Assembly: GCF_000264995.1 (NCBI RefSeq)
Contig: NW_006767443.1
Span: 708,330-772,329 of the forward strand
Reading direction: 5' to 3'
Length of the DNA: 64,000 bases
Origin: Punctularia strigosozonata HHB-11173 SS5
Taxonomy: Eukaryota; Basidiomycota; Agaricomycetes; Corticiales; Punctulariaceae
Under the pieces are notes generated by a model. It ran no database searches. It saw only the letters and a list, made by a program, of their open reading frames with translations, and was not told where the DNA came from. This document shows positions 51,707 to 58,312 of this stretch, piece after piece. Position numbers and translations under genes: made by a program. The stretch's first letter is position 1, and each line of letters opens with the position of its first letter.

Positions 51707-54700
51707 ATGGATCTGTTCAAGAGCGTTCTTTCCCCTCTCCTTGGTAGTGGAGGCGCACTTCCCGATACCCTCGTGAGCCACCTCCCCGTCCCTGCGCGAG
51801 AACGCTGATGCGATCCTGAATGTCAGAAACTGGTCGTCATCGGTGGCACCGTAGAGACAGCTCGCAGAGTCTCTGCATCTGCTTGGAACGGCTTCGTAGA
51901 CTGTTCGTCACCATATACGAACGGACGAACGTGCATGGATAACCCCTCATCACAGCTTTCTTCTTGACCGCGCATTTCAGTCAGGACGATTATCCTTATG
52001 ACTGGTACGCATTCCATTTGGATGTTCAGCTTCCAGAATGCGTTACTAAAGACTCCTTTAGGCTAATGCATTGGCTTTCGAAGGTGTGCATCTCAATTGA
52101 TGCATGTGGAGGTTTATGGTACTGAACAAGGGCCCCTGTGGCAATGGCGTGCAGCAACCCGCGTGGGGACGAAGCCGCGAATTCGATATCACTACACGGT
52201 CCGCCGGCCGCTTAGCATCGACCTCGACCGGCGACCTTGAAGATGACGACGAGGATGAGCTGCATGGCCGCAAGAAACGGAAGGTGGCGTTCCTCCCGAG
52301 CATGGGTACGCGTTGATCCCAGTCTTGATTACTAAGCACCGACTAATTCCGTCTCAAGACACCAGTCATACCATTTACTACCGCGGTCATTGGCTTCGGG
52401 TATGCATCTGTTTTACGCGGCGCCAAAGTCGATCATTTGGCTCAATTGGCGTGTAGATAACGCGCGCGAAACGCTTCCAGGACTACGGACACTGTGCCGA
52501 GCTGAAGATCAGGTGCGCCAGAGACTCTCACCGGCTACCAGCGCTTTCGGAGCTGACGCCCGCCTCCGGTTCTCTTTCTCAGTGTCGTCGCACGCAATAA
52601 TGATATCCTCAAGAAACTCGTACTGGAAGCGAAGAGGCAGTATGAGAAGGATGCCGAACACCGCGTGCACATATTCATGGCTGATACGTCCGTATACCTT
52701 CCTTTTAGGGAAATTGGCTCCTGACCCGGCCTTCTTAGGACGTACGGCGGCTGGAGGTATAGTGGATCGCGCCAGAAACGTCCCATGAGCTCCATTGTAC
52801 TCGAGCCTGGTGTGAAGGAGATGATCGTGGAAGACTGCAAAGACTTCCTGCGGTCCGAAGACTGGTGAGTCTTAGCTTGCATTCGTTCATATTGGCGAGT
52901 CCTATGACCAACTAATGACCGAATCTCCTTCTCACCGCCGTTAGGTATGCCGAAAGAGGTGAGTTCATTGATGCTTATGTAACGGTTTCGGTCTGACATT
53001 ACGTTCCGCATTCAGGGATGTTAGTAGCCCGCTCGTCGTTTACACACCGGTGGATTGCTAATGTACACACCCAGACCGTTTCGTCGCGGCTATCTCTTAC
53101 ATGGAGTCCCAGGAAGGTTCGTATCATATGTTTCGGACTTGGAAGTACGACTGATAGCTTTCGCCAGTGGGAAGACGTCTTTGATACATTCGTTAGCGGG
53201 CGAGCTTGGTCTGGACATTTACGTCGTCAGCCTGTCTGGGAAGGGGTGCGGACTTCCAATGTCATTCCAGGAACCCGCCATTCATTCACTTCATTAGGAT
53301 GAGTGATAACATGTTGACGACACTCATGGGCCATGTACCTTCTAGGTAATTAATGGCCTCATCTCCATGCCGCGAGTTGCTCACGTTCCTCATAGATGTA
53401 TTGTGTTGCTAGAGGATCTAGATGCCGCATTTACGCGTTCCGTGTCTCGGGACAACGGGTCAACGGGTGCCCCTCCTGCTGCTTCGTCGTCAAGCACGGA
53501 AACGAACGCGAAGAACACAGAGACTAACGACGGATCTACTCTTAGCCTGAGCGGCTTATTGAATAGCCTTGATGGTGTCGCAGCTGCGGAGGGAAGGTGG
53601 GTGCCCGCTCTCGTTTATTCCATCGCACCGGGTTCTCACCATACACCTGGAAACAGATTGCTTTTCGCGACAACGAACCACATCGAGCGACTTGATCCCG
53701 CGCTGAGCCGCCCTGGACGAATGGACGTGTGGATCAATTTCAAGCACGCGACCAAGTGGCAGGCAGAAGGCATCTTCAAGTGCTTCTTCCCCACGAAGAG
53801 CTCCTCCGTGTCGCGGAGCGACTCCTGCTCGTCTTCTCTCGAGTGCTCGCCGACGACGCCTCAAGACCCGTCGCAACAGAACATTCCCGTGCCTAAACGC
53901 AAGTCTGCACACTCAATCCCGCTGCTTGACGACGACGAGCTCTCCGAGCTTGCCAGGAAGTTCGGCGAGGCAATCCCTGAAGACGAATTCAGTGTACGTA
54001 GTGGATAGATTTTCGGTGTTTCCATCTCACCGGCCGTGTAGGTTGCGAGCTTGCAAGGTTACCTTCTGCGCAACAAATCGCGTCCTCGCGAGTGCGTTGA
54101 CGAGGTTCAGACATGGTGAGGAGGTTTTTCGTTCCGATCATCAACAGTTCATTGACCATCCCTCGTAGGATCCAGTCCGAGCGTGAGACGAAGGCGAGGC
54201 TGAAGAAGGAAAAAGAAGAGGTTAGTTCGTTGCCTTCATCGCATTACGGTGCTGACCACCACATCCAGGCCGAGAAGAAAGAGGTTAGTATCACCACCTA
54301 CATGACAGCGTGAACTTGCCTGACTATCGATTAGGCGGAGGAGAAAGCCAAGCGAGAGGTTCGTGCTGCAATCTTGATATTGTGATGGTGTGTTGATAGT
54401 CTCCTCCTCAGAAGGAAGAGAAGGCGGCGAAGGAGGTGATCATCTTCGGCTTTAGAACCGATCAAATTCGTTAACGAATTCGTGTACAGAAAGAGGAGCG
54501 AGAAGCGAAGGAGGCGAAAGAGGTACGCCATCTTGATAATCTAGATAAGGCGCCGGCGGCGTTGACTGTATCTCTCGCAGCGGGAAGAAAAGGAGAAAGA
54601 AGTAAGGCCTCATCTGAGATCTGACAGCCACCGGCGATTGATCTCGCATTATCGTAGAAAACCGAGAAGAAAGAGTCGAGACCCAGACTGAAGAAGTCCT

Positions 54701-55014
54701 CTCGCGGCGAGCTGCACAAGATCGACACGAGCATGAGCAAGCCGGCTCCACCGGCAGAGCTTCCGGCGCCTAAACCTCAGCCGGTCAATCAGGCTACGAC
54801 CTCCGGCTCCAGCTCCAGCTCTGAAGCTGAGTCGAGTTCTAACACCGGCAACGAGGGGGACGAAGAGAGTGTCACGTCAGAGGAAGAATATATATCGAAC
54901 CTCGTCAACGCTTCGACGGAATCCAAGGAATGCGACACCAAGACGAAGGAGAAATGGGTGTCCGTCAAAGGCGAGAGTACGCCCGAGGCTGTACCCGCTG
55001 CTGCTGCTGCTTGA
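51707..55014 (+). CDS. BCS1-like mitochondrial AAA ATPase with charged C-terminal extension
   Basis: AAA ATPase of the Bcs1 family; the founding member moves the folded Rieske protein across the mitochondrial inner membrane. The start is [15 protein letters not shown]. The BCS1 N-domain is seen as [12 protein letters not shown] and similar text. The AAA core has [20 protein letters not shown] (Walker A, with an intron inside the Ser codon of SGKT), [12 protein letters not shown] (Walker B), [17 protein letters not shown] and [20 protein letters not shown] (sensor and arginine region). An insert after sensor 2 is Ser-rich. The C-terminal extension is a Lys/Glu helix built from five phase-0 microexons (54269-54601) and then a Ser/Glu-rich tail ending in alanines. 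Such extended members are common in Agaricomycetes; whether this one serves Rieske assembly is not clear. Confidence 0.88.
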
Positions 55015-55292
55015 TTTCTATCTATCTACTTCCTCGTTACTGTGGTCCTTCGCCTTTTTATGCTTGGGTAACGTCGTCTACTGTGTTTTCTGTCTTTCCC
55101 GCTGTTTGTAGACCTGGATTATATCTGTTCCGTACACGTTCTATAATGATGATAGACCTCAAACCTACCAATAGCTGTTTGCGGTGTTCACTCTGGTCAT
55201 CGCATGCAAACGGTCTGAATAGCGGAGTGCCATGTATTATGTGTAACCGACAACATGATGGATACCAATGCTCTACGAATAGTCCTGAGAAA
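55015..55292. other. Convergent gap, BCS1-like / Dnm1
   Basis: 278 bp between two converging stops, holding both 3' UTRs. Nothing else is seen. Confidence 0.5.
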
Positions 55293-58200
55293 TCATGATG
55301 ACTTGAGGGTGACCTCGGATAGCGTCCGGAACGCCTCCTTATACGCATCGAGGAGCGCCTTCACCCGCGTCCGCTCGGCAACGAGCTCCTCGTCCTCGTT
55401 CAGCAAGTCGCCGAACATATCGGGTTTGTACAAGGATGCCACGAGGCGATTTTGGACGTGCTGCGACGTGTGGTTGACAAGGAAGTGCATGACGGCTTTC
55501 GGGACGAGGTCCTGTATCGTCTGTCGGACGATATTGAAGTACGACGCGAGGAGAGTGCGGATGAGGTTCGTCTCCATCTCTTCGCGCATCGTGACTTGTA
55601 GGTTACCGTCTGTAGGGATCTATCCAAGCGACTCAGTGAAGGACTGTAATAGGTTTGACACAACGCCTCTTACCGCTTCAATGTGTTTGCCAAGGCTCTT
55701 CATATCAAACGCCGCACCGCTTCCGTCTCGCCTTCCAGCCATAATCCCTGAATGCACGCTCGGATCCGGCCCGTTCACGTCGCGTCCAGTGCTGACGATC
55801 GCGCCCGGCGCGTCGTGGGCGGAGATCGTGCGTTCTATGCTCGACGCCGAGATCGGACCAGGCCCGTTTTGCCCGAAGAAGTAGTTGAGGAACGTGTCCT
55901 TCGCGGTGCCCGACCCGCCGGACGTGCCGGACGAGTGCCGCACGGTATGGGAAGAATGGGTGGAATGGTGGTGGCGGGAGACGGTGGCGTTGGCTCCGCG
56001 GACCGTGGACCCTGTCGTTGTCCGTGTCCGATCGTGAATGGTGGATGAAACAGAACGGGCATCGGCATGGCCTCCGAGGCCGTTCACGGCATTCCCATCG
56101 ACGGATTCGTCGTCATCCGTCGGCGACAGCATGCCGTTGATGGGCTCTGTCGACGAAGGCTGACAGGACCTGCGATCAGCCTGGAACACGGGTTATACAA
56201 ACTAAACGCTTACTCGGGCTGGTGAGACGGCCTTTCGAGGTGGCTGATGTGAAGTCGTCGCTTCGCGCGCAGCATTGTCGGAGCTGGCGATAAACGCTGG
56301 GTGGTTTGTGTTGATGTACGCAACTTGAATATCGATCAGACTTTGCGTGTACTCGGACGTAGGGCCGAGTCGTTCCCGCAACAGCTCCGAGACGACGTCC
56401 ACGATCTGCGCATGTAACCGCGGGAAGCGTTGCAGCTCCTGCAAGGAAGGAACCATTGAGTTCATGTAGCGTCACCACACTCCAATCAGTACTCGCACTC
56501 ACCGCACCCGCACAATTGTGGCAGATCTTCACCAACTCCTCGTACACTAGCTCGACGCACCGCAGGGCCGGGGCCTCGAGCAGCTTGATCTGCGGCTTCA
56601 CCAGCAGGTCGAAAGCGACTTCGGGGACGAACAGGCTGGGCCGTGGCCCGGTCGAGTTGCGGATGGCTGTCCGTATGTCCTGATCTTCGAGGTTGGCCGT
56701 GGAGTCGATAGAGGCGAGCGCGTGCCCGAAGACGTCATTGAATATGTAGTAGAGCCGCGCCCCGCCAGAGAGCTCTTTCGTGGATATGTCGGGGTTCGTG
56801 CCTTCGATCGAGGAGACGAAATCCCGCGCGAAGGTGGTCATCAACCGGAGAACGAGGGAACCTTGCTGCAAAAACGCAAAACGCGAAAGAGGGGAACGTC
56901 AGGGCTCCCGGTCCAATGAGAGAAGGATGTTGCCATACTTGATTCGAGTCTCCGAAGACCGCCGAATCTCCAAAGGAATTGAGTTCTTGTTGCGCTTGAC
57001 CCATCAGGGTATTCAATCGCGCTTTCATGTCCGGTAACTTTTCGCGAATATGGTTCATCAAGACCTAGGAAAATAGAAACATCTTCTGTGAGCATCTCCC
57101 GTACATTCCATGTCCCGCTCGGACCACATGAAATGTGAAGGTCACCAGACATGCAGGCAAGTTCACAAGGACGTACATGGTTCAGGGTCTTGGCCAAGTA
57201 CTTCGTTCCATTCTTATGCGCGATGTTCCTGTACGCAGGATGGGTCTTGAAGAACTCCTCCTCGCTCTCCCGTGCTTCAACAAGCTCCTTCCCGACATTA
57301 ATGTCCTGTTGGCTCCGGTTCACAACGCCAATAAAGCCGAGCTTTAGCGGATAGACGCGGCCTGTGAGGATGTCGAGTGCGTTGGTACCGGCATCCATCA
57401 GGTCGAGTTTCGTGAGAACACCGATGGTTCGTCGTGCCTGAGGGTCCACAGAACGAGCGAGCTTCAAGGATTCAGAGTTGGCAAGGTCGACGTTGGCGGC
57501 AGAGACAGCGAGAATGATGCTATGACGGACGTGAGAAGAGCATATGCAGGTCTCTCCTGTAGAACGTACCAGTTCGGTTTCGAGATGTAGTCCAGGACCA
57601 AATTGCGAATCTGCTTCTCGATGTCGCTCGGTTGGTCTCCGACAGGGATCTGGACGCAGCATTGAGAACTGGTTCCGCAGGATAGATATCTCCTTTCTAC
57701 TAACCTTCGTCAAGCCTGGTAGATCCACCAACGTCAAGTCTAACACGTTTGGGCTGTAAATCCTTAGGTTGATCGGCAACTTGCTGATACCCTTGTTCTG
57801 GCCGGCGACCCGAAACGTCTCCTGTTCGATCTCGCGCCGAATCTCGTTGAAGTCGGTGAAGCGCTTGTCGATATGCAAGAATTGGCCCCATTCCGTGAAC
57901 CCGGTCGGCGCGTCGGATGCGGGCTGGTGGATGAGCTGCAGGACTAGCGGCCGGCGGGTCACGATACCGGAGCCGCGAGGCAGGAAGTCGCGACCGACGA
58001 TGCTACAGGGAGAAAACGAGTTCAGTATAGTGGAAAGAGAACCGACAGAAGGACATCGTACGTCTCGAGCACGCTGGACTTGCCCGCAGATTGACTGCCG
58101 ACCTACACCGATCCCGAACATATGCTTCAGTTTCAACGACAATGTGCACCGAGACCACCGCACGCACCACAGCCAACTGGGGCATGTCCAGCTCCCCTCC

Positions 58201-58312
58201 TGTCGTCCATAAATCAGCCGCGCATTCCCTGCGCATAAGTACGCTCTGACATACCGAGATTGCTGAACGTGTCTTGAAGCTTGTTCACGAGCTTAATCAA
58301 ATCCTCGTCCAT
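55293..58312 (-). CDS. DNM1: Dynamin-related GTPase Dnm1 (mitochondrial/peroxisomal fission)
   Basis: Large GTPase that assembles around mitochondria and peroxisomes and constricts them. Exon 1 from the ATG at 58312 reads [20 protein letters not shown]. GTPase motifs are [14 protein letters not shown] (G1, in one small exon), [11 protein letters not shown] (G3) and [19 protein letters not shown] (G4). The switch-linked phrase [20 protein letters not shown] is complete. The middle domain includes [15 protein letters not shown] and [19 protein letters not shown]. Insert B is long and Ser/Gly/His-rich with [13 protein letters not shown], a phrase typical of Dnm1 rather than Vps1. The GED reads [20 protein letters not shown] then [20 protein letters not shown]. 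It ends LSEVTLKSS. About twelve exons. Confidence 0.94.

Follow-up and report, generated by a model that had tools for sequence, protein, structure and literature searches.

The run of five microexons at the 3' end of the gene for a BCS1-like AAA ATPase is probably the outcome of ordinary intron accumulation within a purine-rich stretch that encodes a charged tail, with the tiny exons that remain being tolerated under intron definition and the protein product being constitutive. The gene as modelled occupies positions 51707-55014 (+ strand) of the window, i.e. the whole 64,000-nucleotide stretch of DNA that was analysed, which lies on contig C11 of a genome of 33.6 Mb in 32 contigs. Six phase-0 introns are packed there within some 216 nt that encode the Lys/Glu stretch, and the resultant series of exons is referred to below as the ladder.

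Mechanistically, introns would have accumulated in this copy of the gene at AG sites. As the AG of GAG and AAG codons is mostly codon-final, introns at such sites would tend to fall in phase 0, which automatically makes the lengths of the intervening exons divisible by three. Each intron of 48-58 nt would then be recognised as a unit, such that exons of only a few codons could still be joined; the available text of PMC2397502 gives intron definition as the mode of recognition of short fungal introns, and very small exons should present no obstacle because recognition of this type spans the intron. The contrast between ladder exons of 90% purine and ladder introns of 46% purine perhaps aids recognition also. 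The product would be a single constitutive protein, in which an unbroken charged helix follows the AAA domain.

The gene and its predicted structure

The gene model originated in an automatic spliced-ORF search, after which several exons were adjusted by hand to conserved residues. It comprises 24 predicted exons and 23 introns, with a predicted coding sequence of 2016 nt, including the stop codon, specifying a protein of 671 amino acids. Pfam domains were identified in the order BCS1_N (E value of 3.4e-46), AAA (3e-16) and AAA_lid_BCS1 (6.1e-14), each above the curated cut-off, which places the predicted protein among the BCS1-like AAA ATPases and agrees with the identity first proposed for the host of the ladder. 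The features to which reference is made are as follows.

51707-55014, + strand: BCS1-like AAA ATPase gene (gene model; Pfam BCS1_N, AAA, AAA_lid_BCS1)
52945-52958, + strand: exon 10, a 14-nt microexon in the conserved AAA region (gene model; conserved reading aligned with paralogs)
53016-53019, + strand: exon 11, 4 nt, GGAT (gene model; yields the conserved AERGIPFRRG reading)
54169-54220, + strand: exon 18, 52 nt, in which the Lys/Glu tail begins (gene model; aligned with SEREMKVKLKKEKEA of the paralog)
54221-54268, + strand: intron 18, 48 nt, gttagt..cag, phase 0 (gene model)
54269-54283, + strand: microexon 19, 15 nt, AEKKE (gene model and search)
54284-54334, + strand: intron 19, 51 nt, phase 0; retention gives an in-frame stop (gene model)
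54335-54358, + strand: microexon 20, 24 nt, AEEKAKRE (gene model and search)
54359-54411, + strand: intron 20, 53 nt, phase 0 (gene model)
54412-54435, + strand: microexon 21, 24 nt, KEEKAAKE (gene model and search)
54436-54489, + strand: intron 21, 54 nt, phase 0; retention gives an in-frame stop (gene model)
54490-54522, + strand: microexon 22, 33 nt, 11 residues (gene model and search)
54523-54580, + strand: intron 22, 58 nt, phase 0 (gene model)
54581-54601, + strand: microexon 23, 21 nt, REEKEKE (gene model and search)
54602-54657, + strand: intron 23, 56 nt, phase 0 (acceptor picked by likeness to the end of the paralog's tail)
54658-55014, + strand: last exon, end of the Lys/Glu tail followed by a Ser/Glu-rich terminus and stop (gene model)

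The preliminary description had reported five consecutive exons of 15, 24, 24, 33 and 21 nt, all multiples of three and bounded by phase-0 introns, and the gene model reproduces these to the nucleotide. The bounding introns are of the GT..AG type, as had been claimed, but the range of about 50-58 nt given for them needs correction, since the six introns measure 48, 51, 53, 54, 58 and 56 nt. The charged, helix-type composition attributed to the encoded residues is likewise borne out, with 24 acidic, 24 basic and only one hydrophobic among the 60 residues of the tail. Intron 18 alone among the six would leave the frame intact and uninterrupted if retained, its 48 nt being divisible by three and free of in-frame stops. 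The donor of intron 21 (gtgatc) is the weakest in the ladder, and bases 2-3 of microexon 21 form an AG that constitutes an alternative acceptor.

Tiny exons are present elsewhere in the same gene, with lengths of 22, 14 and 4 nt. The 14-nt exon (52945-52958) and the 4-nt exon GGAT (53016-53019) together provide the conserved WYAERGIPFRRG reading in the AAA region. Precedents for exons this small, in the published accounts to the extent available, are a 1-nt exon in a fungal P450 gene and, separately, a 4-bp exon.

Assignment of the gene as the canonical mitochondrial Bcs1 ortholog, i.e. that closest in the genome to solved Bcs1, was considered and rejected. The window gene is probably not canonical Bcs1, because a piece of a gene on contig C9 is far closer to the solved protein (5.9e-28 versus 1.8e-6 for the window gene), a comparison that concerns pieces of 101 and 102 residues only, the C9 gene being incompletely modelled. 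Solved Bcs1 (6uko) aligns with residues 24-414 of a 509-residue query; the Lys/Glu tail was absent from the query used for alignment with the Bcs1 structures (PDB 6uko, 6ukp, 6sh3 and 9gs2). Adjoining the gene on the minus strand (55293-58300) is what appears by eye from the sequence to be a dynamin-like GTPase gene, in which many short introns are apparent in a rough 19-exon model; on account of its roughness this model was set aside as a baseline for introns.

Support for the predicted exons

The spliced-ORF search, which employed hand-set splice weights, was blind to the ladder and recovered all five microexons at intron penalties of 5, 7 and 9. With a per-intron cut-off of 8.5, a value set post hoc from the score of 8.6 of the weakest ladder intron, the + strand of the window contained one chain, of seven introns split by exons of 45 nt or less, in which the acceptor of the first intron differs from that in the gene model; the best chain on the minus strand had four introns. 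Among 60 dinucleotide shuffles of the + strand at the same cut-off, the longest chain was of four introns in 3, three introns in 42 and two introns in 15. At a cut-off of 6 the longest chain was 10 in the window versus 5-8 in 10 shuffles, while at a cut-off of 5 (10 in the window versus 7-13 in shuffles) chain length failed to separate the two. The presence of the ladder pattern in the sequence is thus confirmed, the exon edges themselves being predicted.

It could be argued that the pattern is an artefact of prediction, either because splicing departs from the introns as modelled or because the gene is a pseudogene. Near alternatives can indeed replace single ladder introns at small cost, the penalty for barring any one of them being 0 to 3.6 score units. 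The likelihood of an artefact is nonetheless considered very slight, given that the frame is open through 24 exons with the BCS1_N, AAA and lid domains in place, that the ladder introns score between 8.6 and 13.0 with a positive branch-site score in every one, and that the tail agrees with that of the paralog in kind and position. The least certain edge is the last acceptor, for which the search favoured 54657 at a penalty of 5 and 54686 at penalties of 7, 9 and 11; the former was kept because its frame gives a Ser/Glu-rich end that resembles the paralog's.

Intron positions in paralogous genes

Paralogs were identified by searching the genome with the window protein, followed by construction of gene models, and four were used for comparison (designated by contig as C3, C13, C6 and C14). 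According to these models the two closest paralogs, C3 and C13, have 6 and 2 introns respectively, as opposed to 23 in the window gene. The closest, C3 (7 exons), encodes a Lys/Glu stretch of similar length (WVISEREMKVKLKKEKEAREAKEKAE followed by REKRRKEKAEEEKKK..) with a single phase-0 intron, which argues for the accumulation of introns in the window copy. C13 (C13:310446-312176), also BCS1-like, has both of its introns in the 5' part and a last exon of 1327 nt. The models for C6 (9 introns) and C14 (9 or 10 introns, with one zero-length exon) are faulty around the P-loop, and the tails of C6, C14 and C13 are short and poorly comparable.

Three of the 23 introns in the window gene share both column and phase with an intron in at least one of the four paralogs and a further six lie within two columns of one, leaving 14 that do neither, although two of these (at columns 321 and 442) are only 3-4 columns from a paralog intron. 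So large a proportion of positions unlike those in the paralogs supports intron accumulation, and is as expected of an intron-colonised gene copy of the type represented by Stehi1|78757| of Stereum hirsutum. The gene's additional tiny exons point in the same direction. Two ladder introns lie near paralog introns, one beside the C3 tail intron, of which it may be the counterpart, and the other beside an intron of C6 in poorly alignable sequence.

The converse interpretation is that the common ancestor of the paralogs already had the tail introns, which have been lost elsewhere, for example via recombination of reverse-transcribed copies. The structure is certainly old in part, since the intron at column 93 (phase 1) recurs in three of the four paralogs and that at column 214 (phase 2) in all four. 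Moreover, the confinement of the C13 introns to the 5' part and its long last exon would fit cDNA-mediated loss, and only a single genome was compared, both of which count against accumulation. Set against this, the 14 introns with no paralog intron within two columns of them would require repeated losses at the same places, a comparison limited by the short and poorly comparable tails of C6, C14 and C13. Ancestral intron richness is accordingly rated as possible but somewhat doubtful; its constitutive-splicing component is held in common with the favoured interpretation.

Sequences related to the P-loop region were observed also in IMG/VR and Planctomycetales MAG contigs (L069-L071, L097 and L098), which are 55-58% identical over about 75 residues. 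Relatives were found at 28 loci in viral contigs and at least 11 loci in prokaryote contigs, and were set aside because they are uninformative on intron history.

Phase, composition and intron density

All six ladder introns are in phase 0, compared with 4 of the 17 others in the gene (Fisher 0.002), and five of the six exons upstream of ladder introns end in GAG. Since the introns are in phase 0, divisibility of the exon lengths by three follows and does not represent five further coincidences. The composition of the tail could explain much of this bias, in that cuts at AG fall in phase 0 at 31 of 47 sites in the tail versus 43 of 95 in exons 1-17, which supports accumulation at AG sites. Random AG sites do not fully account for six out of six, however, the probability that five random tail AG sites (five of the junctions being AG-ending) are all in phase 0 being 0.12. 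It is also the case that PMC3584928, in the sections available, found little protosplice signal, no excess of phase 0 and no spatial preference.

Ladder exons have a purine content of 0.90, as against 0.46 in ladder introns and 0.51 in exons 1-17, which is consistent with a role for composition in the favoured interpretation, but the gene's other small exons have a purine content of only 0.47, indicating that the tiny exons of this gene are not purine-rich as a rule. Intron density is 27.8 per kb in the tail versus 11.4 per kb in exons 1-17 (Poisson P 0.04). In terms of the gene model the ladder is a local peak of a gene-wide intron density, albeit one that gene-wide richness slightly under-predicts. 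Folding of the RNA from 54169-54720 revealed no excess of structure over shuffled sequences (z 1.16; an equal or better fold was obtained for 87 of 100).

A single alpha-helix (SAH) domain is characterised by a spacing of opposite charges that goes beyond composition. With an ad hoc score for SAH-type charge spacing, the window tail gave P 0.13, whereas the score of the C3 tail was reached by 0 of 2000 shuffles.

Exon skipping

The suggestion that any of the exons could be skipped without a frame shift stands in principle, as five symmetric phase-0 exons permit 32 frame-preserving combinations. Were microexons skipped singly or together, a charged lever attached to the AAA ring could feasibly be varied in length by splicing, and it is in this manner that schistosome micro-exon genes (MEGs) act according to PMC4350168. 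Published surveys offer some encouragement. The junction analysis of Schizophyllum commune counted 1,527 coding-region skipping events versus 7,851 alternative-site events (PMC5034255), and the cassette-exon fraction in Ustilago maydis is 0.21, a value derived from 8 events (PMC2397502). In the same sources, however, exon skipping makes up 1% of coding-region events in S. commune transcripts (PMC5034255), and the cassette fraction is 0.02 in Cryptococcus neoformans, or 3% when the surveyed fungi and protists are taken together (PMC2397502). The window gene presents a physical difficulty in addition, because a single skip would need an intron of 114-145 nt, and omission of all five exons one of 437 nt, when the introns of the gene range from 48 to 80 nt. 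Skipping in the ladder is judged unlikely because these surveys find it to be uncommon in fungi, and combinatorial control of lever length appears distinctly improbable. One discordant point for constitutive splicing is that the grouping of a C. species in PMC2374712, as far as its available text goes, differs from the picture in PMC2397502 and PMC5034255.

Comparison with known systems

The nearest precedent for the gene as a whole is, by analogy, the alpha-amylase copy Stehi1|78757| of S. hirsutum, which has 21 introns, mostly at private positions and with a narrow size distribution around a median of 56 bp (PMC3584928, as available in part), and which lends support to intron accumulation. 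That source describes massive intron gain in the alpha-amylase genes of Agaricomycotina. The likeness extends to the occurrence in one copy of more than 20 short introns of narrow size range, mostly at positions unlike those in paralogs; the host of the window gene is likewise taken to be a basidiomycete, on the strength of its short introns, intron density and BCS1-like paralogs. The two differ in that the Stereum gene is described there as having neither phase bias nor spatial preference, whereas the window gene crowds six phase-0 introns into the tail.

In architecture, the closest system would appear to be the MEGs of Schistosoma, which similarly have series of tiny symmetric exons that can be skipped without a frame shift (PMC4350168, PMC10526429; both available in part). 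MEGs differ in that most of the coding region consists of microexons, introns reach up to 5 kbp and the products are secreted, according to the accessible part of PMC4350168; the window gene has 117 of 2016 nt in microexons and ladder introns of 48-58 nt, and is predicted to encode an AAA ATPase. Membership of the MEG class, in which most coding sequence resides in tiny symmetric exons, was rejected on the basis of these 117 of 2016 nt and of 11 symmetric exons among the 22 internal ones. That the ladder should represent a fungal counterpart of MEGs, in which combinatorial inclusion sets lever length on a BCS1-like AAA ring, is regarded as highly unlikely.

Among fungi, P450 genes of Phanerochaete chrysosporium resemble the window gene in having microexons (of 2-10 codons) and short introns (frequently 45-55 bp), and their microexons were proposed as candidates for alternative splicing; the available text describes no run of consecutive symmetric microexons of the type seen here, and the protein family is unrelated (PMC1184071). 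The Xlr2 gene of Trichoderma virens likewise has a fungal microexon, reported as alternatively included, but there the microexon stands alone, belongs to a gene for a transcription factor in an ascomycete and has been the subject of functional tests (PMC11121469). Among the titles and abstract openings returned by searches of the open-licence literature, none describes consecutive symmetric microexons in a fungal gene.

The ladder is uncommon and tidy, and is, with moderate confidence, explained well enough by known processes. If splicing is constitutive, the five exons of 15-33 nt and the 4-nt exon would provide a compact natural test of exon-size shrinkage under intron definition, to which the paralog with a similar tail and one intron adds. 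If skipping does occur, it would be a surprising role for cassette exons in a fungal gene. From the standpoint of annotation, tails of this type are easily missed or misread.

Likeness between exon-intron units

The microexons had been thought to look like copies of one another, implying that the helix was lengthened by tandem copying of exon-intron units of about 60-90 nt. The exons and introns were aligned with each other, and the signal on which this idea would depend was absent from the exons and from local alignment of the introns, with a weak excess in global alignment of the introns only. Specifically, exon likeness is that of random cuts made after Glu in the same tail (P 0.36), and the view of the exons as copies is not confirmed, although all five begin with x-Glu (P 0.008; a post hoc value from one of three statistics tried), which is in keeping with duplication. 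Local alignment of the six introns with splice sites stripped gave a mean that was reached by 190 of 500 dinucleotide shuffles and a maximum reached by 97 of 500.

Global alignment of the six introns with splice sites kept was more favourable to duplication, the mean being reached by 1 of 500 shuffles preserving only the ends and by 14 of 500 preserving the branch site as well; the latter result also counts to some degree against accumulation of the introns. The excess is not specific to the ladder, however, since mean global likeness is 0.467 between ladder introns and 0.462 between these and the 14 other introns of 48-60 nt. Sets of six at least as alike numbered 6876 of 38760 when drawn from all 20 introns of 48-60 nt, and 45 of 3003 when drawn from the 14 others alone. 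Adjacent introns 18-19 and 22-23 were the top two of the five adjacent ladder pairs (adjacent mean reached by 44 of 500 shuffles, maximum by 25 of 500).

Repeats at the spacing of the proposed unit were observed also. One, of 18 nt at 83%, has a spacing of 63 and spans the end of the exon plus the donor at introns 18 and 19; another, of 31 nt at 74%, has a spacing of 78 and covers exons 21 and 22 together with the acceptors that precede them. These speak for duplication, and both consist of Lys/Glu code and splice sites. No tandem array with the period of the unit was found in 53800-55100, where the search for tandem repeats returned four rows with periods of 3 to 9, and the paralog tail attained a similar length without a ladder. 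Duplication is therefore weakly supported at best, with an ancient event still conceivable, and growth of the ladder by this route is considered unlikely. Intron accumulation in the tail fits better with intron likeness that is not ladder-specific and exon likeness no greater than tail make-up gives.

A genome search for introner-type copies of the gene's DNA, using a method that skips very common words, returned only its own locus. Within the gene, introns 11 (53020-53074) and 15 (53597-53656) have 15 bases in common in a 16-column alignment near the donor, with a score of 25 that was reached by 9 of 300 shuffles, or by 6 of 200 once the branch sites had been masked. The best five pairs among all 23 introns were jointly matched by 0 of 300 shuffles, and by 20 of 200 when masked. 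The likeness between introns 11 and 15 is a possible trace of within-gene intron copying.

A genome-wide pattern for GAG-ended microexons between GAG|GT donors was tried and set aside, the 121 matches versus 97 for the reversed control indicating that most arise by chance. Overlapping consecutive matches, among the matches listed, were confined to the ladder locus and a minisatellite-like stretch on contig C7. Also among the matches listed was a near-identical sequence, some 73 bp long and containing ACGGTCAGAT repeats, which occurs at nine places on seven contigs (for example C9:204638, C9:228085 and C14:270988) and is probably a dispersed repeat.
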